Part shown: positions 23-16,204 of the stretch, piece after piece | Layout of the letters: every line of letters begins with the position of its first letter | Position numbering within the stretch: position 1 is the stretch's first letter | Virus record (IMG/VR): IMGVR_UViG_3300033571_013189 | Coordinates: 1 to 23,953 of that record | Length of the DNA stretch: 23,953 nt | From: a virus | Strand: one strand, 5' to 3' | Translations under genes and position numbers: made by a program | The notes under the pieces: generated by a model | The model's input: only the letters and a program-made list of their open reading frames with translations | Databases searched by the model: none | Told to the model about the DNA's origin: nothing

Positions 23-1648
23 ATGGCGTTATTAGATTATTTTCCATCCAAATTCAATCCACTTGTCCAACAAGTGGAACTCATTAATAAAATTGACGAG
101 GCTTTTAATGACGGTTATAAATTCGTCATCTGCTGCGCTCCTACTGGCAGTGGCAAGTCGTTTTTATCTAAAACTCTTGCGAATGTTTCTTCTGAACCAT
201 CAAAAGAATTTACAGATCTTGTTGAGAACGGAAGTGCTTTTAGATTGGATAGTTATGGAAACTATACTAAAGAGCAAGAGTGTTTAGATGAAAAGCCTTT
301 TGGGGTGTTTGCATTGACTATTACAAAAAGTTTACAAGATCAATATACAGAACTTTTTGACGATTCTAGGGCGTTAAAAGGCAAGACAAATTATATGTGC
401 AACATCGATCCACAATATGATGTGGATGTAGCTCCTTGCTTGTTTACACCCGGCTTAAAGGAAAAGTGTATCTTGAACAATACATGTTCATATTACAATG
501 CTAGAAAAGATATACTAATCAACAAGTTTGGTATTTTAAACTATAGTATGTTTCTTTCGATGCCAGAACATGTAAGAAATCGTGAATATATTATTTGTGA
601 TGAAGCATCAGAAGTTGAAGATGAATTGGTTAAAAGATTCAGCCGTTCATTGCCGTACAAATTGTTAAAACGGTTGGGTTATTCACCCAGAGAGATTCCT
701 GTAGAGAATTATAGTAAATTTAAAATTTGGTTAGATAATCTAATTATTAAAATTGGTGACGAAGTTGATGCTTTAAAACGTGTTTTAAATAAGAAGAAAG
801 GCAAGGCCGAATTTGATTCAAACATTCAAAGATTTAAATTATTCAATAACTTACTTCGCCAAATGCAGGGAACAATGGATACATGGAAGGAATGTGAATA
901 TGTTGTAGAACATAATTTAGAAGGTATTACATTAAAACCGTTTCGTGTGGATAATTTAGCTAAACATATTTTTTCTCATGCAGATAAGATTCTATTGATG
1001 TCAGCAACAATTATTGATCCTGCAAACTTTGCTAAAACTTTGGGAATTACCAAGTTCAAATATATTGAAGTTGATTCTACATTTGATCCAAAGAATGCAC
1101 CTATTTATGCATCGACTACTACTAAATTTAATCATAAAAATTTAAAAGAGAATTTACCTTTAATTAAAAATACCATTCAAAAACTGTGTAATTCACACAA
1201 AAATGAAAAAGGTATTATTCATACTCATACTAATGAGATCACACAATATTTAAAAGATAATATCGATGATCCTAGATTTTTGTTCCGTATTGATGGAATG
1301 GATAACGAAAAGATTTTAAAGGTTCACTTCGAATCTAAAGAACCAACCATTTTGGTTAGTCCATCAATGGCTTATGGTGTAGACCTCAAAGAAGACCTAG
1401 CAAGGTTTCAAATTGTTTGTAAAGCTGCTTACCTTCCTTTGTATGATGAGCGCATTAAAAGGCTTTTTAATGAAGATAAGGATTGGTATGTAAATAAAAT
1501 GCTTAATAATCTAATTCAAGCATGTGGGAGAGGAGTTAGATCAAAACAAGATAAATGTGTAACCTATATTTTGGATGCTACAATTTCTGATACGGTGATT
1601 AGAGCAGCATCAAAACTACCGAAATATTTTACTGCTAGATTCAATTAA
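23..1648 (+). CDS. DinG/XPD-type superfamily 2 DNA helicase
   Basis: The 541-aa product looks like an ATP-driven DNA helicase. Visible motifs are a Walker A P-loop (TGSGKS, residues 41-46), a Walker B box reading D193-E194-A195-S196 (a variant of DEAH), and a motif VI (QACGRGVRS, near residues 499-507) ending in the arginine finger. Four cysteines between motifs I and II (C126, C139, C149, C155) sit where XPD/DinG helicases hold a 4Fe-4S cluster. Their spacing differs from the cellular enzymes, so the metal is inferred. The ATG at 23 is the first start after an in-frame stop at 8-10. No promoter is visible because the window begins here, so the gene may be cotranscribed with genes to the left. 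The role in replication, recombination or repair is unknown. Confidence 0.8.
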   Translation: MALLDYFPSKFNPLVQQVELINKIDEAFNDGYKFVICCAPTGSGKSFLSKTLANVSSEPSKEFTDLVENGSAFRLDSYGNYTKEQECLDEKPFGVFALTITKSLQDQYTELFDDSRALKGKTNYMCNIDPQYDVDVAPCLFTPGLKEKCILNNTCSYYNARKDILINKFGILNYSMFLSMPEHVRNREYIICDEASEVEDELVKRFSRSLPYKLLKRLGYSPREIPVENYSKFKIWLDNLIIKIGDEVDALKRVLNKKKGKAEFDSNIQRFKLFNNLLRQMQGTMDTWKECEYVVEHNLEGITLKPFRVDNLAKHIFSHADKILLMSATIIDPANFAKTLGITKFKYIEVDSTFDPKNAPIYASTTTKFNHKNLKENLPLIKNTIQKLCNSHKNEKGIIHTHTNEITQYLKDNIDDPRFLFRIDGMDNEKILKVHFESKEPTILVSPSMAYGVDLKEDLARFQIVCKAAYLPLYDERIKRLFNEDKDWYVNKMLNNLIQACGRGVRSKQDKCVTYILDATISDTVIRAASKLPKYFTARFN

Positions 1649-1664
1649 TTTAAGAAAATATAGG

Positions 1665-1700
1665 TAAGCTACTAATACTACTAAATATATTAGTAGCTTA
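1665..1700 (+). promoter_or_regulatory. 12-bp inverted repeat enclosing late promoter and start codon
   Basis: TAAGCTACTAAT (1665-1676) and ATTAGTAGCTTA (1689-1700) are perfect inverted repeats around a 12-nt loop. The loop contains TAAATA (1682-1687), and the right arm ends on the A of the ATG at 1700. In read-through RNA the hairpin would hide the start codon. A transcript starting just downstream of TAAATA would lack the left arm. Confidence 0.75.
1682..1687 (+). promoter_or_regulatory. T4-type late promoter core TAAATA for gp15-like gene
   Basis: TAAATA ends 12 nt before the ATG at 1700. The predicted start of transcription is near 1693, giving a leader of about 7 nt. It lies in the loop of the inverted repeat. 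Confidence 0.55.
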
Positions 1701-2824
1701 TGCATAATAAAACCTTTAATTTTGAAATTCGTGATTTATTGACGCAATTTATAGCGGCAATGGATGACGTAGTTATTTCTCGCTATAATAAAGATAGAGA
1801 AGAAAAAGAAAGAATAAAGGTTAGATATGTACATGCTCCGAAAGAAAGAGTATTTTATGATCTGGTAAATAAGGCACAAAACATAACATTGCCAGTTATA
1901 TCAGTAAATATAACTGGTGTTCAAAGGGATGAATCCAGAGTTTTTAATAAGATTGATGGGTTTTACGAACCAGTAAGAAGAGACACTCAAGGTAAACTTA
2001 CTACTCATGTGGCTATGCCAGTGCCTATAAATGTGAGTGTAGCAGTTAGTATAATAACTAACTATCAATCCGATCTAGAGCAGATAATATCAAACTTCGT
2101 TCCTTATTCTAATCCATATATAATTATATCATGGAAAACACCCGAATCTTTTAGAATTGGTAATTTAGAAGAAATAAGATCTGAAGTATTATGGGATGGG
2201 ACTATTCAAGTCGAATACCCCACAGACATAGAATCATCTACAAAACCAAGATTTGCGGGTAATACTACTTTTACTATTAAAGGTTGGTTATTTCCTGCTG
2301 CTGAAGAAGATTATTATAAAAATATATATTTTGTTAATAATCATTTTAGATTAACAGAAAAATATAATTTAAATTATGATTCGTATTCTACTAATTTATC
2401 AGCAGAAAATGGTTTAACGGTTTCGGAAACTATTTCTATTTCTGGTGCGCCATTAATAACCAATCTATATATTAATAGAGATAATGGACCATTTGAATTA
2501 TCTGGATTTAAAGTAATTATTGAAAATAAAGATACTTTTATAATTTTGGGTCAAAACTTCCAATACACAACAAATGTTTTAATAAGTAGTAACTCTAATA
2601 CATTATATACAAATTTAACATCATTGTCTTATACTTATTATCCAACTATTAGTGGATTTTTGTTACCAGAAACAAATTATAAAGTAATGAATAAAAATGC
2701 TATTCATGTGAACCTACCAAATTTTACTGAATATGCTAATATAAATTTAGTTGTTACTAACCCAATAGGATGGAAAGATACGAACTCAATTAATACACAA
2801 ATGTACTATATTTCTTCTGTGTAA
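1700..2824 (+). CDS. 15: gp15-like tail sheath terminator (tail completion) protein
   Basis: The first ~230 residues follow the pattern of T4 gp15, the protein that caps the tail tube and sheath and joins tail to head. Shared features are an N-terminal helix leading to an Asp-Asp/Val-Ile segment, a central stretch with PVPINVSVAVSIITNY, then LEQIISNFVPYSNPYI, and a GWLFPAAEEDYYKNIYF segment matching the gp15 GW-[ML]-[YF]-P region. At 374 aa it is about 100 residues longer than T4 gp15. The extra C-terminal part (about 250-370) resembles an IPT/TIG immunoglobulin-like fold (ILGQNF early, NLVVTNPIGW late), which could be exposed on the virion neck. Assignment is by remembered family pattern, not alignment. 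The gene lies directly before the portal gene and has a late promoter. Confidence 0.7.
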   Translation: MHNKTFNFEIRDLLTQFIAAMDDVVISRYNKDREEKERIKVRYVHAPKERVFYDLVNKAQNITLPVISVNITGVQRDESRVFNKIDGFYEPVRRDTQGKLTTHVAMPVPINVSVAVSIITNYQSDLEQIISNFVPYSNPYIIISWKTPESFRIGNLEEIRSEVLWDGTIQVEYPTDIESSTKPRFAGNTTFTIKGWLFPAAEEDYYKNIYFVNNHFRLTEKYNLNYDSYSTNLSAENGLTVSETISISGAPLITNLYINRDNGPFELSGFKVIIENKDTFIILGQNFQYTTNVLISSNSNTLYTNLTSLSYTYYPTISGFLLPETNYKVMNKNAIHVNLPNFTEYANINLVVTNPIGWKDTNSINTQMYYISSV

Positions 2825-2839: not shown

Positions 2840-5800
2840 ATGGCAGACAATTTTGATGATGGTAAAACTTCTACATTTGGTAGAGAATTGATGAATTATA
2901 TTTCATCTAAATTGCCGTATACTGGCATTGATGTAGCAAAACTTACTGATAGTTTAAATCCTAAATACAAATATTTCGAAGATACTGGAGTTAGAAGAGC
3001 AGAAGTTTTAGCCAGACATTCAATTTCCCAAAATTTTGATTACAATAATGCGTCATTAGGACAAGTAACTTCTGATAAACATTATAGCCAAGTAATGTAT
3101 GCTAATATCCAAAAGGATAAAGCAGCAAGAATCAGAGATTATAGAATAATGGGGGCATTTTCTGAAGTAGCAAATGCTTTGGATGAAATATGTGATGAAT
3201 GTATTAATATTGATTCTGGATCAAATAGTTGCATGAATCTCAAATTTAAAAATATTTCTTTATCCAATTTCCAGATAGAAGCGATTCAAAAAGAATTTTT
3301 AAAATATACTAGTTATTTCGATTTTGAACATAAAGGATGGGGATATTTTAGACAATTCTTAACAGAAGGAGAAATATATTGGGAGCATATTATTCATAAA
3401 GACTATACAGAAGAAGGTATTTTAGGAGTAGTACAAGTCCCGACTGAATTAATTGATCCTGTATTTTCTAATGTTCAAAACGTAATGGTTAAAGGTTATC
3501 TATATAGAAAACCTAAATTTGATCCAAATAATCCATTAAAACAAATTGGCGTTGATTTTGTTCCTATGGATAAGAATCAGATCACTTATGTGAATTCTGA
3601 AGTATGGAATGAAAATAAAACAATGCGGCTTCCGTTCTTGGAAAATTGTCGTAGAGCTTACAGACAATTATCAATGATTGAAGATTCAATTGTTATATAT
3701 CGTTTGGCTAGAGCACCAGAAAGATTGGTATTCAATGTTGATGTTGGTAACATGCCAGCACCAAAAGCCGAAGCATATCTTCGTAAATTAATTACAAATT
3801 ATTGGAGCAGCAAAACTTACGATCCAAATCAAGGTGGTATTGTACAGAAGTTTAATCCACAATCCATTCTTGATAATTTCTGGTTTGCTAAACGTGCTGG
3901 TTCTGAAGGAACTAGTGTAATTCAATTGGCAGGGGCATGTTTAGCTATGGATACTAAAGTTCCATTATTAGACGGAAGGTCTTTAACTATAAGTGAAATC
4001 GAGCAAGAAATTAAAGAAAATAAGAAAGTATGGGTGTATAGCACAGACCCAAAAACTGGTCATGTAGCTCCCGGTTTGGTTACTTGGGCTGGTGTTACTC
4101 AAGAAGAAGCTGAAGTTTATAAACTTACTTTTGATAACGGAAAAGAATTAATTTGCACACCAGATCATAAATTCCCAATTTTAGGCAAAGGATTTGTAGA
4201 AGCAAAAGATCTAGAAATTGGCGAAAGTATGATTCCTTTTTATACTAAGAAGTCTTCTATTCGTAAGGGTACTAGTGAATATGAAATGGTTTATCAAAAT
4301 GATACTAAAAAATGGGAATTTACTCATAGATTAGTAGGAAATTTCTTTAAAAATATAAACGAACACGAAGAAATGGTGTATGGAGAAAGTTATATAAAAC
4401 AAAATAAATTGACTATACATCATAAGAATTTTAATCGTTTTGATAATACTCCAGAAAATCTAGCATTCATGAATAACAGAGATCATGTAAATTATCATGC
4501 TGATTTTTGTGGAGCTATGTGGCATAGCAGAACTGAAGAAGAAATAAAACATATCGGAAAAAAACAATCAGAAGGTATTAAAAATTATTTTTCTCTGTTA
4601 TCAGAAGAAGAAAGAGATATTCGCGCTAATATTTCAAGAGAAAACGGAAGATTGGGGCCAATTGCTTTAGGTGAAAGGCTAAAAGATTCTGAATTTAAAA
4701 AGGAATTTGGGTCAAAAATAAGCAAAGGAATAAAAGCAAAATTTGCTGCGATGACTGAAGAAGAAAGAAAAATTTATTTTTCAAATAGTTATGCAAAGAG
4801 TTTACAAAACGAAAATTATGTAAATGGTTTGAAAAAGATGAAAGAAAATCAATCTCTTATTTTTGATGACAAGATTTTGAAATTTGTTATTGATCAAGTT
4901 CGTGGAAAGACTACTCATGAAGTAACTAGGGAGGATTTATGTGTTATTATTAATAATACACCAGAAATTCTTAACCATTTCTTGAAATTAAACGAAGGAA
5001 GAAAGATTAAAAACTGGTGCGGAACAAAGATTTCTTACACTCATTTTGCACCAATGGTTAAGAATTTTGGTTATAAAACATGGAAGCAATTCCGCAAAGA
5101 ATACGAATTATTCAACCATCGTTTGGTGAGTATCGAAAAACTTCCCAATAAGATTCAAGTAGGTACATTGACGATTGATAATGATGAAAAATATCATGAT
5201 TATCATACGTTTGCTCTTGATTGTGGAGTTTTTACAAAAAATTCCAACCTTGGCGAGCTTGAGGATTTAATGTACTTCGTTAAGAAGCTATATCAATCTT
5301 TAAAAGTGCCTACTACTAGATTAGATCCACAAGACGCATTTCGCGATGGAACTGACATGCTTCGTGAAGAATTGAAGTTTGCTAGATTTATAATTCGCCA
5401 ACAGCAATTATTTGCTCATGGTATTAAAAATAGTTTCGTCACCCATCTCGAAATGAAAGGGATGTGGAAAGATTTCAACTTAAAAGAAGATTCTATACAA
5501 TTGTCTTTTAATGTTCCTACCAATTTTTATGAATTAAGAGAAAGCCAAAAATTAGAATTGAAGGTTTCTAATTTTGGTAGTTTAGCATCAAATGAATCCA
5601 TTTCACCTACATTTGCTCAAAAAAGATATTTAGGTTGGACTGATATCGAAGTAAAAGCTAACAGAGAATTCTTAAGAAAAGATAAAGAACTAAGATGGGA
5701 ATTAACACAGATAGAACAATTTGGTCCTAATTGGAAAGAAATGGCTGCACAACAAGCTCAAGCAGCAGAAGCTGGCGCAGCAGGAGCACCTCCAGCAGGA

Positions 5801-5956
5801 GGCGGCGGAGGAGGAGGTATGCCTCCAGCATTTACTGGTGGACCAGCAGGTCCAGAAGCTGCTGAACCCGAAGCAGGAGCAGAAGCTGGTGGAGCAGCAC
5901 AACCCGAAGCAACACCAGAAGCAGGTGGAGCACCCCCTCCAGAACCAGAAACATAA
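2840..5956 (+). CDS. 20: Portal vertex protein (gp20-like) precursor with intein
   Basis: The 1038-aa precursor is a T4-type portal protein with an in-frame intein at residues 367-801. Splicing would leave a 603-aa portal; T4 gp20 is 524 aa. The exteins carry family hallmarks: FLTEGEIYWEHIIH (~residues 173-186), a YRLARAPERLVFNVDVGNMP segment before the intein, and after it SNLGELEDLMYFVKKLYQSL, which corresponds to the T4 stretch ending in KKLY-x-[AS]-L-x-VP-x-TR. The portal forms the dodecameric ring through which DNA is packaged and on which the head starts to assemble. The last ~70 residues are an Ala/Gly/Pro/Glu-rich tail absent from T4 gp20. A late promoter lies 5 nt before the start. 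Confidence 0.93.
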   Translation: MADNFDDGKTSTFGRELMNYISSKLPYTGIDVAKLTDSLNPKYKYFEDTGVRRAEVLARHSISQNFDYNNASLGQVTSDKHYSQVMYANIQKDKAARIRDYRIMGAFSEVANALDEICDECINIDSGSNSCMNLKFKNISLSNFQIEAIQKEFLKYTSYFDFEHKGWGYFRQFLTEGEIYWEHIIHKDYTEEGILGVVQVPTELIDPVFSNVQNVMVKGYLYRKPKFDPNNPLKQIGVDFVPMDKNQITYVNSEVWNENKTMRLPFLENCRRAYRQLSMIEDSIVIYRLARAPERLVFNVDVGNMPAPKAEAYLRKLITNYWSSKTYDPNQGGIVQKFNPQSILDNFWFAKRAGSEGTSVIQLAGACLAMDTKVPLLDGRSLTISEIEQEIKENKKVWVYSTDPKTGHVAPGLVTWAGVTQEEAEVYKLTFDNGKELICTPDHKFPILGKGFVEAKDLEIGESMIPFYTKKSSIRKGTSEYEMVYQNDTKKWEFTHRLVGNFFKNINEHEEMVYGESYIKQNKLTIHHKNFNRFDNTPENLAFMNNRDHVNYHADFCGAMWHSRTEEEIKHIGKKQSEGIKNYFSLLSEEERDIRANISRENGRLGPIALGERLKDSEFKKEFGSKISKGIKAKFAAMTEEERKIYFSNSYAKSLQNENYVNGLKKMKENQSLIFDDKILKFVIDQVRGKTTHEVTREDLCVIINNTPEILNHFLKLNEGRKIKNWCGTKISYTHFAPMVKNFGYKTWKQFRKEYELFNHRLVSIEKLPNKIQVGTLTIDNDEKYHDYHTFALDCGVFTKNSNLGELEDLMYFVKKLYQSLKVPTTRLDPQDAFRDGTDMLREELKFARFIIRQQQLFAHGIKNSFVTHLEMKGMWKDFNLKEDSIQLSFNVPTNFYELRESQKLELKVSNFGSLASNESISPTFAQKRYLGWTDIEVKANREFLRKDKELRWELTQIEQFGPNWKEMAAQQAQAAEAGAAGAPPAGGGGGGGMPPAFTGGPAGPEAAEPEAGAEAGGAAQPEATPEAGGAPPPEPET
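3938..5242 (+). mobile_element. Intein with HNH homing endonuclease inside the portal gene
   Basis: This is a 435-codon intein, residues 367-801 of the precursor. It begins with Cys (CLAMDTKVPLLDG, splicing block A) and has block B with T440-x-x-H443 (CTPDHKF). A block F-like segment (DYHTFALDCGVF) precedes the terminal Asn801, and the first C-extein residue is Ser802. The residue before the terminal Asn is Lys800 instead of the usual His. The middle holds an HNH nuclease motif (H527-H528, D535-N536, N540, H549 and H553) followed by charged helical stretches with repeated [ST]-EEER motifs, perhaps DNA-binding modules of the NUMOD type. The insertion splits a highly conserved portal segment, a typical intein position. 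Splicing is inferred from intact terminal residues and a continuous reading frame. Confidence 0.9.
5741..5953 (+). repeat. Low-complexity Ala/Gly/Pro/Glu tail of portal protein
   Basis: This stretch encodes a repetitive tail of Ala, Gly, Pro, Glu and Gln, including seven Gly in a row near the middle. It is clearly more GC-rich than its surroundings. It lies beyond the conserved portal core and is probably disordered. Confidence 0.8.
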
Positions 5957-11929: not shown

Positions 11930-12811
11930 ATGGAAATTTCTAAACTTTTAAAGGAAGCAACACAGGGTATTTTAACCGATGAAACCCTATCACAAATTCA
12001 AGAAGCATTTGATGGTGCCGTAAATGAGCGTGTTAAAATCCATGTCGAAAAGGCATTAATGGAACAGGACTTGGAATACACAGCAAAAGCCGAACAGCTT
12101 TTAGAAGCTATTGATGCTGATCATTCTAAAAAATTACAACGTGTTGTAGAAGCAGTTGATACAAATAATGCAGCAAAACTACAAATGGTTGTAAATCATT
12201 ATCAATCAATTATCAGGGAACAGGCTTCCCAATTTAAATCAGATTTAGTTGATAAAATTTCTGATTATATTGATATTTTTATCGAATCTAAAATTCCCCA
12301 GAAATCTATCAACGAAGCAGTTAAGAATCAAAAGGCTAGAATCATTCTTAATAATCTTCGTGAATCTTTAGCTATTAATTCTGCTTTAATGAGTGAATCA
12401 CTAAAAGATGCATTAATTGATGGTAAGACTCAAATTGATAAATCTAAAAATGCACTAAAAGCTGCACAAGATGAAGCTAAGACGCTTCGTGAATCTTTTG
12501 AAAAGACAAAAGCTGCTCTAGTATTAGAGCAAAAGACTGCACATCTAAATCCTAAGAAGAAACAATATGCTCTTCGTGTATTTGAAGGCAAGTCTCCAAA
12601 ATTTATTGTAGAAAATATTGATTACACTTTATCACTCTTTGATAAAAAAGAAGAAGAAAGATTAGTAACTTTAAAGGAAGAAGCATTCGAATCTAGGAAA
12701 GTTAAATCGGATCGTATTGTAATTGAAGAAGATACACAAGAAGAAATTTCAAATTCCGAAAATAATTTTGAACACGTTCGTAATTATTTGAATGAGATGA
12801 GTAAATACTAA
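11930..12811 (+). CDS. 22: Prohead scaffold core protein (gp22-like)
   Basis: This 293-aa, almost entirely helical and highly charged protein is the major scaffold around which the prohead shell assembles. Family signs are the N-terminal LLKEATQGILTDETLSQI, long coiled-coil repeats, NPKKKQYALRVFEGKSPKFI late in the protein, and the position between genes 21 and 23. An LKE-Ala site near residue 9 and further L-x-E sequences would let gp21 degrade it during maturation, as in T4. No cysteines are present. Confidence 0.9.
   Translation: MEISKLLKEATQGILTDETLSQIQEAFDGAVNERVKIHVEKALMEQDLEYTAKAEQLLEAIDADHSKKLQRVVEAVDTNNAAKLQMVVNHYQSIIREQASQFKSDLVDKISDYIDIFIESKIPQKSINEAVKNQKARIILNNLRESLAINSALMSESLKDALIDGKTQIDKSKNALKAAQDEAKTLRESFEKTKAALVLEQKTAHLNPKKKQYALRVFEGKSPKFIVENIDYTLSLFDKKEEERLVTLKEEAFESRKVKSDRIVIEEDTQEEISNSENNFEHVRNYLNEMSKY
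12802..12807 (+). promoter_or_regulatory. Late promoter core upstream of capsid gene leader
   Basis: TAAATA, then CTAAT, then ATG at 12813, which opens a 19-codon ORF. It is the nearest late promoter to the capsid gene, 105 nt before its ATG. GAGTAAA (12799-12805) and TTTACTC (12816-12822) form a 7-bp inverted repeat around it. Confidence 0.6.
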
Positions 12812-12812
12812 T

Positions 12813-12872
12813 ATGTTTACTCAAAAATTTGGTAGAAGTATAACATACTTGAGTTCCTGCATGTTCAACTAA
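12813..12872 (+). CDS. Leader peptide ORF upstream of capsid gene (19 aa)
   Basis: A 20-codon ORF (MFTQKFGRSITYLSSCMFN plus TAA) starts at the standard 5-nt distance from TAAATA and ends 40 nt before the capsid ATG. It could be a translated leader peptide of the capsid mRNA or simply the first AUG of a leaderless transcript. No homologue is known to me. Placement and promoter spacing are the only support. Confidence 0.4.
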   Translation: MFTQKFGRSITYLSSCMFN

Positions 12873-12882
12873 CATGCTTGAG
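12841..12882 (+). repeat. Direct repeat and hairpin in capsid mRNA leader
   Basis: TAACATACTTGAG (12841-12853) recurs as TAACATGCTTGAG (12870-12882), 12 of 13 identical with a 29-nt period. Between and overlapping them, GCATGTT (12859-12865) and AACATGC (12871-12877) form a 7-bp hairpin with a 5-nt loop covering the stop of the leader ORF. Confidence 0.7.
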
Positions 12883-12912
12883 GTCGAAAAAAGAAAGAAA
12901 CAAAAAACACAT

Positions 12913-14520
12913 ATGAAACAAATCAAACCCGCACAATCATATATTGATCAAGATCGCGCTAAGGTTCTATTGGAAAAGTGGGCACCAGTGCTCGACTATA
13001 CCAGCAAAAACGTAGCTGCTATTGAAGACGAACACACTCGTTTAAACACTGCAATGTTGCTTGAGAACCAAGAACAGTATTGCTTACGTGAAGCAAACGT
13101 AGCTGGTGGAGCAGGAAGTGTATTTGGTACTGCAAATAATGGTCAGTTCGGTGGACAAGTTGGTGCAAACACTGACTTTTACGCTGGTGGCGATTCTCGC
13201 TTACCAAAGATTCTTATCCCCATGATTCGCCGTACTTTCCCAGAATTGATCACTAACGAAATCGTTGGTGTTCAGCCTATGTCTGGACCTGTTGGTCTAG
13301 CATTCGCGCTTCGTTACAAGTACAGCAAGGATACATTGGGTGGTAACTTCCAAGATACTACTTATCCAAATAGTGCAACCGGATCTGCATCAACTGCAAC
13401 TCCTGTATACAGCACTTTTGATGCTCAGGGTAATGGTGTGAATCTTCTTGGATACACTGTTGGTGGTCAATGGCTACCAGCTCCCGGTGTCCACGTTAAT
13501 ACAACTGTTAACTTTGCTGGATCTGCTGCTGCTCCCTTCAACAAGTCTCCCGGTGGCGACAACGAACTAGGATGGCAACATCTAGATTCTCGCTTCACTG
13601 GTGTTCAAGCTAAAAATGGTGCTCTATCAGGTAATGCTGAATGGAACTTTGCTGCACAGGATCAAGGCGTTGCTGAAATTCTAAAGAATTTCGAAATCAA
13701 TGCAAACATCCCAACTGTTGAAGTATCCTTCGAAAAGACTGCTGTTGAAGCTGGTACTCGTAGACTTGGTGCTAAATGGTCAGTAGAATTAGAACAGGAC
13801 TTGAAGAACATGAACGGTATCGATATTGATGCTGAGATCACAAATGCTATGGCATATGAGATCCAAGCTGAAATTGACCGTGAAATGATTATCCGTATGA
13901 TCCAGACTTCCTTAAATGGTGGTTTCGGAAAAGGATATTCTATTTGGTCACCTCAGTCCGCTGATGGTCGTTGGTTGGTTGAACGTAATCGTGACTTCTA
14001 CCAGAGAGTTATTATCGAAGCAAACCGCATTGCAATTCGCAATCGCCGTGGACCTGCAAACTTTATTGTTGCAACTCCTCGCGTTTGTGCAATTTTTGAA
14101 ATGCTACCCGAATTCCAATGGGTAACAGTTCAGGGCAATGTTAGCACCCAGTCAACTGGCGTTGCTAAGGTTGGTTCTTTAGGTGGTCGTTTCCAAGTTT
14201 ATCGTGACACTCGCACTGAAGTTCAGAACAGCGATGTCTATGGTGATCAAGGTTATGTAGGCCAAACCCCCGGTGTTGAATATGCCCTATTAGGTTATAA
14301 AGGTACAGAATTCTATGATTCTGGTATCATTTATTGCCCATACATTCCAGTTATGATTCAGAGAACTATTGGACCAAATGATTTTGCTCCTCGCGTAGGT
14401 CTATTGACCAGATATGGCGTGGTAGACAATATTTTTGGAGCCGCATTGTATTACCATACAATCATTCTCAAGAATCTTGGTCAGGCATTTACTCCCGGCA
14501 ATACTTCAGTGTACTTTTAA
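12913..14520 (+). CDS. 23: Major capsid protein precursor (gp23-like)
   Basis: This 535-aa protein is the T4-type shell protein (T4 gp23 is 521 aa). The N-terminal region with LLEKWAPVLDY is the propeptide. The probable gp21 cut is after L58-R59-E60, before ANVAGGAG, close to the T4 cleavage point after residue 65. The mature part contains DSRLPKILIPMIRRTFPELI, VGVQPMSGPVGLAFALRYKY, LEQDLKNMNGIDIDAEITNA and a C-terminal GRYGV-like TRYGVVDNIFGAALYYHTI. The ATG at 12913 was preferred over 12874, which would add 13 mostly basic residues and lies in the leader hairpin. The upstream sequence is A-rich with no clear Shine-Dalgarno. Codon use is noticeably more GC-rich than in neighbours, as expected for a very highly expressed gene. 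Confidence 0.96.
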   Translation: MKQIKPAQSYIDQDRAKVLLEKWAPVLDYTSKNVAAIEDEHTRLNTAMLLENQEQYCLREANVAGGAGSVFGTANNGQFGGQVGANTDFYAGGDSRLPKILIPMIRRTFPELITNEIVGVQPMSGPVGLAFALRYKYSKDTLGGNFQDTTYPNSATGSASTATPVYSTFDAQGNGVNLLGYTVGGQWLPAPGVHVNTTVNFAGSAAAPFNKSPGGDNELGWQHLDSRFTGVQAKNGALSGNAEWNFAAQDQGVAEILKNFEINANIPTVEVSFEKTAVEAGTRRLGAKWSVELEQDLKNMNGIDIDAEITNAMAYEIQAEIDREMIIRMIQTSLNGGFGKGYSIWSPQSADGRWLVERNRDFYQRVIIEANRIAIRNRRGPANFIVATPRVCAIFEMLPEFQWVTVQGNVSTQSTGVAKVGSLGGRFQVYRDTRTEVQNSDVYGDQGYVGQTPGVEYALLGYKGTEFYDSGIIYCPYIPVMIQRTIGPNDFAPRVGLLTRYGVVDNIFGAALYYHTIILKNLGQAFTPGNTSVYF

Positions 14521-14641: not shown

Positions 14642-16204
14642 ATGAAAGAAGAAAAAAACAAAATTGTAGAATTTTTAAAACAAAATTATAAAGGATCGTA
14701 TAGATTCATAAAGAATAAAATGTTTATCAATACATTTGGGATTAGTTTATATAATATAATTCATACAGAGACTAAATTTTTAGATAATAGTAAATACCCA
14801 TTTTCTGTTAGAGTTCGTTCTTTTATAGAAAATATTAATACACAACCCATATGTGTTGTCTGTGCAAAAGATACAATTTTTAATTCTAATAATGGCTGGC
14901 AAGCTACATGTAGTAGATCTTGTCATATGAAATCACCAGAAAGATTAAAAAAATTAAAAGAAACCAATTTAATTAAATATGGATCAACAAATTTTTTAGC
15001 TTCTGAACAAGGGAAAAACAAATTAAAAGAAACGAATATCAAAAAATATGGAGTTGATAATTATGCTAAATCTTTAGAATTTAAAGAAAGGATTAAATCT
15101 GGTGACATAAAACCTAAAAATAACCCAGAATTAATTTCATTCAAATTTAAATTAAATTATTATAATAGTTTAGTTAATGGTGATATAGTTATGCCATTAT
15201 TTCCATTTGAAGAGTACGAAGGTTTTTTAAATGGCTATAAAATGTATAGCTGGAAATGTAAAAAATGTGATTATAAATTCCAAGCTATTATAAAGTATCA
15301 TAAACATTTGGAATGCAGAAAATGTAAACCAACAGGAACTAAAATGGAAATTTTCATTAAAAATTTCTTAGATCAATATAATATAAATTTTATTTATAGA
15401 GATAGAAATGTTTTAAATGGATATGAAATTGATGTGTATATTCCTAGTCATAAATTAGGAATAGAATTACATGGTTTATATTGGCATACAGAATACCATA
15501 AAGATAAAAACTTACATAAATTAAAAGCAGACCTAGCTCATAGTGCAGGTATTAATTTAATTCAAATTTTCGAAGATGAATTAAAATTTAAAAAAGAAAT
15601 AGTATTAAGTAGACTTAAAAATTTATTAAATTTAAATGATAATAAGATATTTGCTCGCAAATGTTCTATAAAAGAAATAAAAAGTAATATCAAATCAGTT
15701 TTTTTGCAGAATTATCATATTCAAGGAAATAGTAATACTTCAATAAATTATGGATTATATCATAATAATGAATTAGTATCTGTAATGACTTTTAGTAAAG
15801 AACGAATTGCATTAGGTTCTAAAACTAGAAATAACGTATACGAATTAAATAGACTTTGCTCTAAATCAAATATTAATGTAATTGGAGGTGCAAGTAAATT
15901 GCTTAAACATTTCATAAAACAATATAATCCTAATGAGATTATAAGTTATGCAGACCGAAGATGGTCTAATGGAAAAGTATACGAAAATATGGGATTTGAG
16001 TTTATTAAAAATACAGAACCTAATTATTGGTATACAAATACATATCAAACAAGAGAACATCGATTTAAATATAGAAAAGATGTTTTGTCTGAAAAATTGG
16101 AAAATTACGATGAAACTTTAACCGAATCCGAAAATATGAGTAATCATGGGTATGTTAAAATATGGGATGCAGGAAGTAAAAAATATATATTAACCTTATG
16201 CTAG
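14642..16204 (+). CDS. VSR-like (EDxHD) mobile endonuclease with zinc fingers
   Basis: This 520-aa protein has the layout of free-standing phage homing endonucleases of the very-short-patch-repair (VSR) fold. In order: a C4 zinc finger (C71, C74, C90, C94); paired repeats ETNLIKYGSTNF / ETNIKKYGVDNY (~107-141), probably DNA-binding; a second zinc ribbon (C206, C209, C225, C228); a nuclease core with E262-x-D264 and IELHGLYWH (E275, H277, H282); then an acetyltransferase-like fold (about 345-470, VIGGASKLLKHFIKQYNP, ISYADRRWSNG) often fused in this group; and an end with VKIWDAGSKKY. It follows the capsid terminator and its end overlaps the next ORF by 7 nt, consistent with insertion between existing genes. 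It has a strong Shine-Dalgarno, unlike its neighbours. Confidence 0.85.
   Translation: MKEEKNKIVEFLKQNYKGSYRFIKNKMFINTFGISLYNIIHTETKFLDNSKYPFSVRVRSFIENINTQPICVVCAKDTIFNSNNGWQATCSRSCHMKSPERLKKLKETNLIKYGSTNFLASEQGKNKLKETNIKKYGVDNYAKSLEFKERIKSGDIKPKNNPELISFKFKLNYYNSLVNGDIVMPLFPFEEYEGFLNGYKMYSWKCKKCDYKFQAIIKYHKHLECRKCKPTGTKMEIFIKNFLDQYNINFIYRDRNVLNGYEIDVYIPSHKLGIELHGLYWHTEYHKDKNLHKLKADLAHSAGINLIQIFEDELKFKKEIVLSRLKNLLNLNDNKIFARKCSIKEIKSNIKSVFLQNYHIQGNSNTSINYGLYHNNELVSVMTFSKERIALGSKTRNNVYELNRLCSKSNINVIGGASKLLKHFIKQYNPNEIISYADRRWSNGKVYENMGFEFIKNTEPNYWYTNTYQTREHRFKYRKDVLSEKLENYDETLTESENMSNHGYVKIWDAGSKKYILTLC

Follow-up and report, generated by a model that had tools for sequence, protein, structure and literature searches.

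The start codon of a gp15-like gene in an uncultured T4-like phage lies at the edge of a perfect hairpin whose loop holds a late-promoter-like box, and this arrangement very probably reflects selection for a switch like that of the T4 lysozyme gene (gene e). The window, meaning the whole stretch of DNA that was analyzed, is a 24-kb piece (23,953 nucleotides) of this phage genome, with genes for a helicase, gp15, a portal protein with an HNH insert, a prohead protease, and the major capsid protein. Comparison with T4 supports the hairpin as a variant of the gene e kind of switch in structure and logic, with a timing that we infer. The gene e switch is a textbook case, found in close T4 relatives and at a few homing endonucleases. 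Here its layout is seen again at a structural gene of a T4-like lineage that is distant and uncultured; covariation over many contigs is strong, and the genomes show no sign of Shine-Dalgarno use. This recurrence suggests that such gates arise repeatedly with new sequences, and it offers a clean natural test of whether structure at the AUG alone can gate translation when the 5′ end lies at or next to the start codon.

The hairpin and its putative loop promoter

The gp15-like gene (positions 1700 to 2824, plus strand), a putative tail sheath stabilizer and the proposed gated gene, was identified by a match to phrog_227 (E value, 6.7e-18) and by tblastn matches to annotated gp15, in agreement with the preliminary description of this DNA. 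Immediately before it lies a perfect inverted repeat on the plus strand, consisting of a left arm, TAAGCTACTAATA (1665 to 1677), present only in RNA reading through from upstream; a 10-nt loop, CTACTAAATA (1678 to 1687); and a right arm, TATTAGTAGCTTA (1688 to 1700). The preliminary description had reported a 12-bp repeat with a 12-nt loop; the repeat is indeed there, but it measures 13 bp with a loop of 10 nt, the innermost A-T pair having been omitted. Its placement of the start codon on the last base of the right arm was correct, the A of the ATG being at 1700. With a G1664-U1701 wobble pair added to the hairpin, the first two bases of the AUG are both paired. The hairpin folds at -16.2 kcal/mol (z = -3.06). 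The window contains three perfect inverted repeats with arms of 13 bp or more and a loop of 3 to 15 nt, and none of 30 whole-window dinucleotide shuffles contains any. In the loci fetched first there were 607 distinct TAAATA sites; when the stems enclosing them were ranked by strength, 10 of the top 12 proved to be at gp15 starts. No Rfam family matched at gathering score anywhere in the window.

The late-promoter-like box, ACTAAATA (1680 to 1687, plus strand), includes TAAATA at 1682 to 1687, within the hairpin loop and 12 nt from the gp15 ATG. Its assignment draws on the position of TAAATA in the hairpin-bearing orthologs, on a genome-wide spacing rule, and on the literature on the T4 box, which occupies -13 to -6 and has a variant with a/gC at -13/-12 in phage Aeh1 (PMC2988020). 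The spacing rule had been noticed in the preliminary description and was borne out: exactly 5 nt separate TAAATA from the start codon at 14 genes of the window (for example, those at 2840, 6450, 8638, 10974, 11654, 17170, and 22078) and at 66 genes of a 236-kb relative (contig G001, loci L047 to L058), in which TAAATA-N5-ATG has 72 matches versus 5 for the reversed pattern. Most late-type genes have this spacing, and no Shine-Dalgarno site accompanies it. With the T4 box geometry, a 5-nt spacing places +1 on the A of the ATG, so that the late RNAs of these phages would be leaderless. Homologs of the late sigma factor gp55 (phrog_234; E values, 1e-16 to 5e-27) are encoded in the related contigs G001, G003, and G006, the window itself being a 24-kb fragment. 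Shine-Dalgarno-like sites were absent from all 86 genes of the 236-kb relative with TAAATA 4 to 7 nt before the start, and at its other genes they were about as frequent as at internal control starts (20 versus 17).

The gp15 start breaks the 5-nt rule, as had also been remarked. From the T4 geometry, its 12-nt spacing would put +1 at G1693 (plus strand), the sixth base after TAAATA, giving a 7-nt leader, GUAGCUU, with neither the left arm nor a Shine-Dalgarno site. The base at the inferred +1 is a purine in 12 of 13 hairpin-bearing orthologs. Spacing from TAAATA to the start is 9 to 13 nt in these orthologs and 5 to 6 nt in most of those lacking the hairpin (L010, L018, L031 with a GTG start, L033, L038, L040, and L044), indicating that the extra spacing goes with the right arm.

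Covariation among gp15 orthologs

Relatives of gp15 were fetched from viral contigs; none were found in bacterial or archaeal genomes, and a nucleotide search for related phage records returned only short portal matches. In 13 orthologs, a number that includes the window and near-copies such as L036/L039/L042, a hairpin was found at the gene start. Its right arm stops 1 nt short of the start codon in L004 and abuts or overlaps it elsewhere. The arm sequences differ among loci, with GATACTACT/AGTAGTATC in L004, GTTACTCTTAT/ATAAGAGTAAC in L005, GTTACTCTAGTAT/ATACTAGAGTAAC in L035, GTTCC/GGAGC in L045, and the nonrepetitive pairs CGTTCCAA/TTGGAACG in L036 and GCTTCT/AGAAGC in L037. In all hairpin-bearing orthologs, TAAATA is found either within the loop or, as in L034, L035, L037, and L045, partly in the innermost pairs.

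Because a MAFFT alignment of the hairpin region mixes the arms, covariation was assessed by arm swapping and by pair counts anchored at the start codon instead of column-based tools. In the alignment-free swap, folds were computed for all combinations of right and left arms. Across eight lineages, the summed fold energy of the own arms was -91.3, versus a mean of -45.7, and 2 of 40,320 permutations, the observed one included, were as good. Across nine lineages, the corresponding values were -100.0 and -47.4 (standard deviation, 9.8), with 2 of 362,880 permutations as good, again counting the observed one. Pair positions -1 to -9 from the ATG each show three to five pair types among the 13 hairpin orthologs. 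Furthermore, contigs L091 to L093, fetched after the idea had formed, carry the arms TTTCTTCTA/TAGAAGAA; the right arm again ends at the ATG, which TAAATA precedes by 13 nt. These contigs are identical at the hairpin and were counted as one independent case. Arms that failed to covary in relatives had been named beforehand as an observation that would speak against a switch, and the arm swaps, the pair types, and the later-fetched contigs all indicate that the arms do covary.

The hairpin is absent from L010, L018, L038, and L041, in which gp15 also follows the helicase. Its history requires at least three gains or losses on the tree. Its absence from several orthologs behind the same helicase indicates that gp15 can do without it.

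Comparison with T4 gene e and the proposed gate

In T4, the long early RNA of gene e folds over the start, reducing lysozyme synthesis about 100-fold, whereas the 5′ strand of the hairpin is missing from transcripts that begin at the late promoters just upstream, a mechanism shown by experiment (PMC3014915). We read the T4 record directly and found AATACCTTCTATAAATACTTAGGAGGTATT followed by ATG, with the late box TATAAATA in the loop of the stem-loop and the right arm ending at the ATG. The precedent cited in the preliminary description therefore matches in detail: in both phages the late box is in the loop, the left arm lies upstream of +1, and the right arm ends at the ATG. The distance from box to ATG is 13 nt in gene e and 12 nt in the window, and in 12 further orthologs and the later-fetched contigs the box is likewise placed such that late RNA, from its inferred start, would lack the 5′ strand. 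The two systems also differ. The right arm of gene e hides a strong Shine-Dalgarno sequence, TAGGAGGT, which has no counterpart in the window, where the edge of the AUG itself is buried in the helix. The late RNA of gp15, with a predicted leader of only 7 nt, would be near-leaderless, unlike that of gene e; the gated gene encodes a tail protein and not a lysis enzyme; and the gene e switch is experimentally proven, whereas that of gp15 is proposed from sequence.

Hairpins of this sort have also been described at T4 I-TevI, I-TevII, I-TevIII, segB, soc, and gene 49 and at Aeh1 mobE (PMC2988022, PMC3014915). As proposed for gp15 in the window, these are late genes also present on longer transcripts, in which the long RNA covers the start and RNA from the nearby late promoter does not. 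These cases, however, sequester a ribosome binding site, many of them are homing endonucleases, and no gp15 is among those described. A further parallel is Bacillus subtilis sigG, whose RNA is predicted to form a large hairpin when transcribed from the upstream (spoIIG) promoter but not when transcribed from its own; it differs in being a bacterial sporulation gene with at least 20 pairs and a ribosome binding site (PMC5942855).

Under the proposed gate, RNA reading through from the helicase gene would carry both arms and form a hairpin of 13 to 14 bp, covering the region before the gp15 start together with the A and U of the AUG, and gp15 would hardly be translated. Late RNA polymerase of the gp55 type would start at the TAAATA in the loop, with RNA beginning at about 1693, inside the right arm. 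Such RNA would lack the left arm, stay open, and be translated. Upstream RNA would be present when gp15 should be silent. The preliminary description had proposed folding the early and late RNAs as a check. In read-through RNA, the predicted cost of opening positions -6 to +3 is 4.4 to 13.7 kcal/mol across the 13 hairpin orthologs, and in RNA from the inferred +1 it is 0.3 to 2.7 kcal/mol in 12 of the 13; the window values are 11.6 and 2.2 kcal/mol, respectively. The start is thus predicted to be open in late RNA, with the exception of L002, for which folding of late and read-through RNA is predicted to be equally tight (8.2 kcal/mol in late RNA).

Considering what is read from sequence (a covarying hairpin with TAAATA in its loop, the gene e layout, and gp55 in relatives), together with a transcription start, a ribosome block, and upstream RNA that we infer, we think it likely that a translational gate set by the position of the RNA start operates at gp15. 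More cautiously, the start is predicted to be open only in RNA that begins at the gene's own promoter; the gate may act by transcript origin rather than strictly by early versus late timing. A point against the gate is that the left arm in L037 adjoins the stop codon of the helicase gene, where a terminating ribosome would cover it. Another is that, with no Shine-Dalgarno site, initiation at the internal gp15 start might be poor regardless of the hairpin.

A possible but clearly less probable refinement holds that the hairpin stops ribosomes finishing the helicase from restarting at gp15, on early and late read-through RNA alike, making the loop promoter the sole source of gp15 and the hairpin an origin gate instead of a timer. 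The gene preceding the helicase in relatives has TAAATA at its start, so that read-through into gp15 need not be early and is likely to occur late as well, and the missing Shine-Dalgarno sites (none at the 86 late-type genes) would leave restart or direct binding for internal starts. The distance from helicase stop to gp15 ATG (51 nt in the window; 22 to 51 nt across relatives) is nevertheless fairly long for restart, and a timing role remains compatible with this refinement.

That the repeat acts as DNA, as an operator bound by a dimeric regulator or as a cruciform that helps to open the TATA box, and so affects transcription and not translation, is improbable. The repeat is centered on the promoter, and late promoters open through melting at the box (PMC2988020); yet the arm sequences are wholly different between lineages with pairing kept, which a sequence-specific operator would forbid. 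A cruciform is compatible with covariation, and this evidence does not formally count against it. The right arm is fixed to the ATG, which lies anywhere from 9 to 13 nt from the box, and most other late-type promoters of the window and its relatives have no such repeat.

Still less probable is a transcription terminator or processing site that ends the helicase transcript, on either strand. There is a weak terminator-like match on the minus strand (1700 to 1665), but its T-rich tail is not kept in relatives; on the plus strand no terminator match was found at the hairpin, and the stem is followed not by a T run but by the ATG in every hairpin ortholog. The terminator scan and this conservation led us to reject a terminator or antisense terminator. 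A functionless chance palindrome or TACTA-type repeat is scarcely credible despite the 31% GC content of the window and the TACTA repeats in the hairpin arms, given that the 30 shuffles yielded no equal, that nonrepetitive arms stand at the same place in other lineages, and that the arms covary by the permutation test.

The helicase, the gene before it, and other features

The DNA helicase gene (phrog_2488; 23 to 1648, plus strand) is the proposed source of read-through RNA, and no terminator-like site was found on the plus strand between it and gp15. In 15 relatives, no TAAATA lies within 30 nt of the helicase start, as would be expected if RNA begun farther upstream supplies this gene, and this start is predicted to be mostly cheaper to open (0.6 to 9.3 kcal/mol).

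Just before the helicase, relatives carry a gene of about 118 amino acids (L069, ~13551, minus strand; L060, ~18329, minus; L066, ~17820, plus; L089, ~2629, plus; L086, ~2187, plus) belonging to no known PHROG family. TAAATA lies 5 to 6 nt before its start, and in most relatives a hairpin runs over the ATG into the first codons. Only 10 of 40,320 arm permutations were as good, and comparison of these relatives shows a second covarying hairpin of the gp15 design. On a simple reading, through-going RNA would make the helicase but not its two neighbors.

When late-type starts of the window were pooled with those of six related contigs, 15 of 216 folded at -10 kcal/mol or below around TAAATA, versus 3.7 expected on swapping of the upstream parts, and gp15 of the window has the strongest fold of all. 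Divergent late promoters were removed before this count, as TAAATA-N5-ATG facing its mirror image is a trivial inverted repeat. In our estimate there is an about even chance that the gate recurs in this T4-like group, whose late RNAs appear to be leaderless and to lack Shine-Dalgarno sites: several genes (gp15, the ~118-amino-acid gene, and some others) would have a start-burying hairpin with a late promoter in its loop, the helicase would be made alone from through-going RNA, and burial of the AUG would replace sequestration of a ribosome binding site.

A Bacteroidota host, suggested by the missing Shine-Dalgarno sites, was unsupported: TAnnTTTG was not enriched and TTGAC..TAnnAT only weakly so.

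Several other features were observed. The portal gene (2840 to 5956) is a single open frame of 1,038 amino acids with an HNH-bearing insert of about 430 amino acids that looks like an intein with a homing endonuclease. In G001 (103597 to 104970, plus strand), the gp55 match falls into two parts of a single open frame of about 500 amino acids, as if this late sigma factor held an intein. At 14642 to 16204 there is a free-standing homing endonuclease gene, perhaps a recent arrival, with a strong AGGAGG before its ATG in a genome that otherwise has hardly any Shine-Dalgarno sites. The major capsid leader (12800 to 12918), also found in G003, G004, G005, and G006, is strongly conserved and apparently structured, and no Rfam match was found for it. 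It comprises, in order, AAATTTGGTAGAAGTA..TACTTGAGTTCCTGC, a stem-loop with changing yet complementary arms, GCTTGAGGTCGAA, an A-rich stretch, and ATGAAACAA, the last of which is probably the true capsid start. Finally, sigma-70-like promoters (TTGAC..TAnnnT) were seen by eye to end sometimes 3 to 8 nt before an ATG (G001 at 37294, 54929, and 232131, plus strand; G004 at 592, plus; G005 at 35757, minus), as if some early RNAs were leaderless too.
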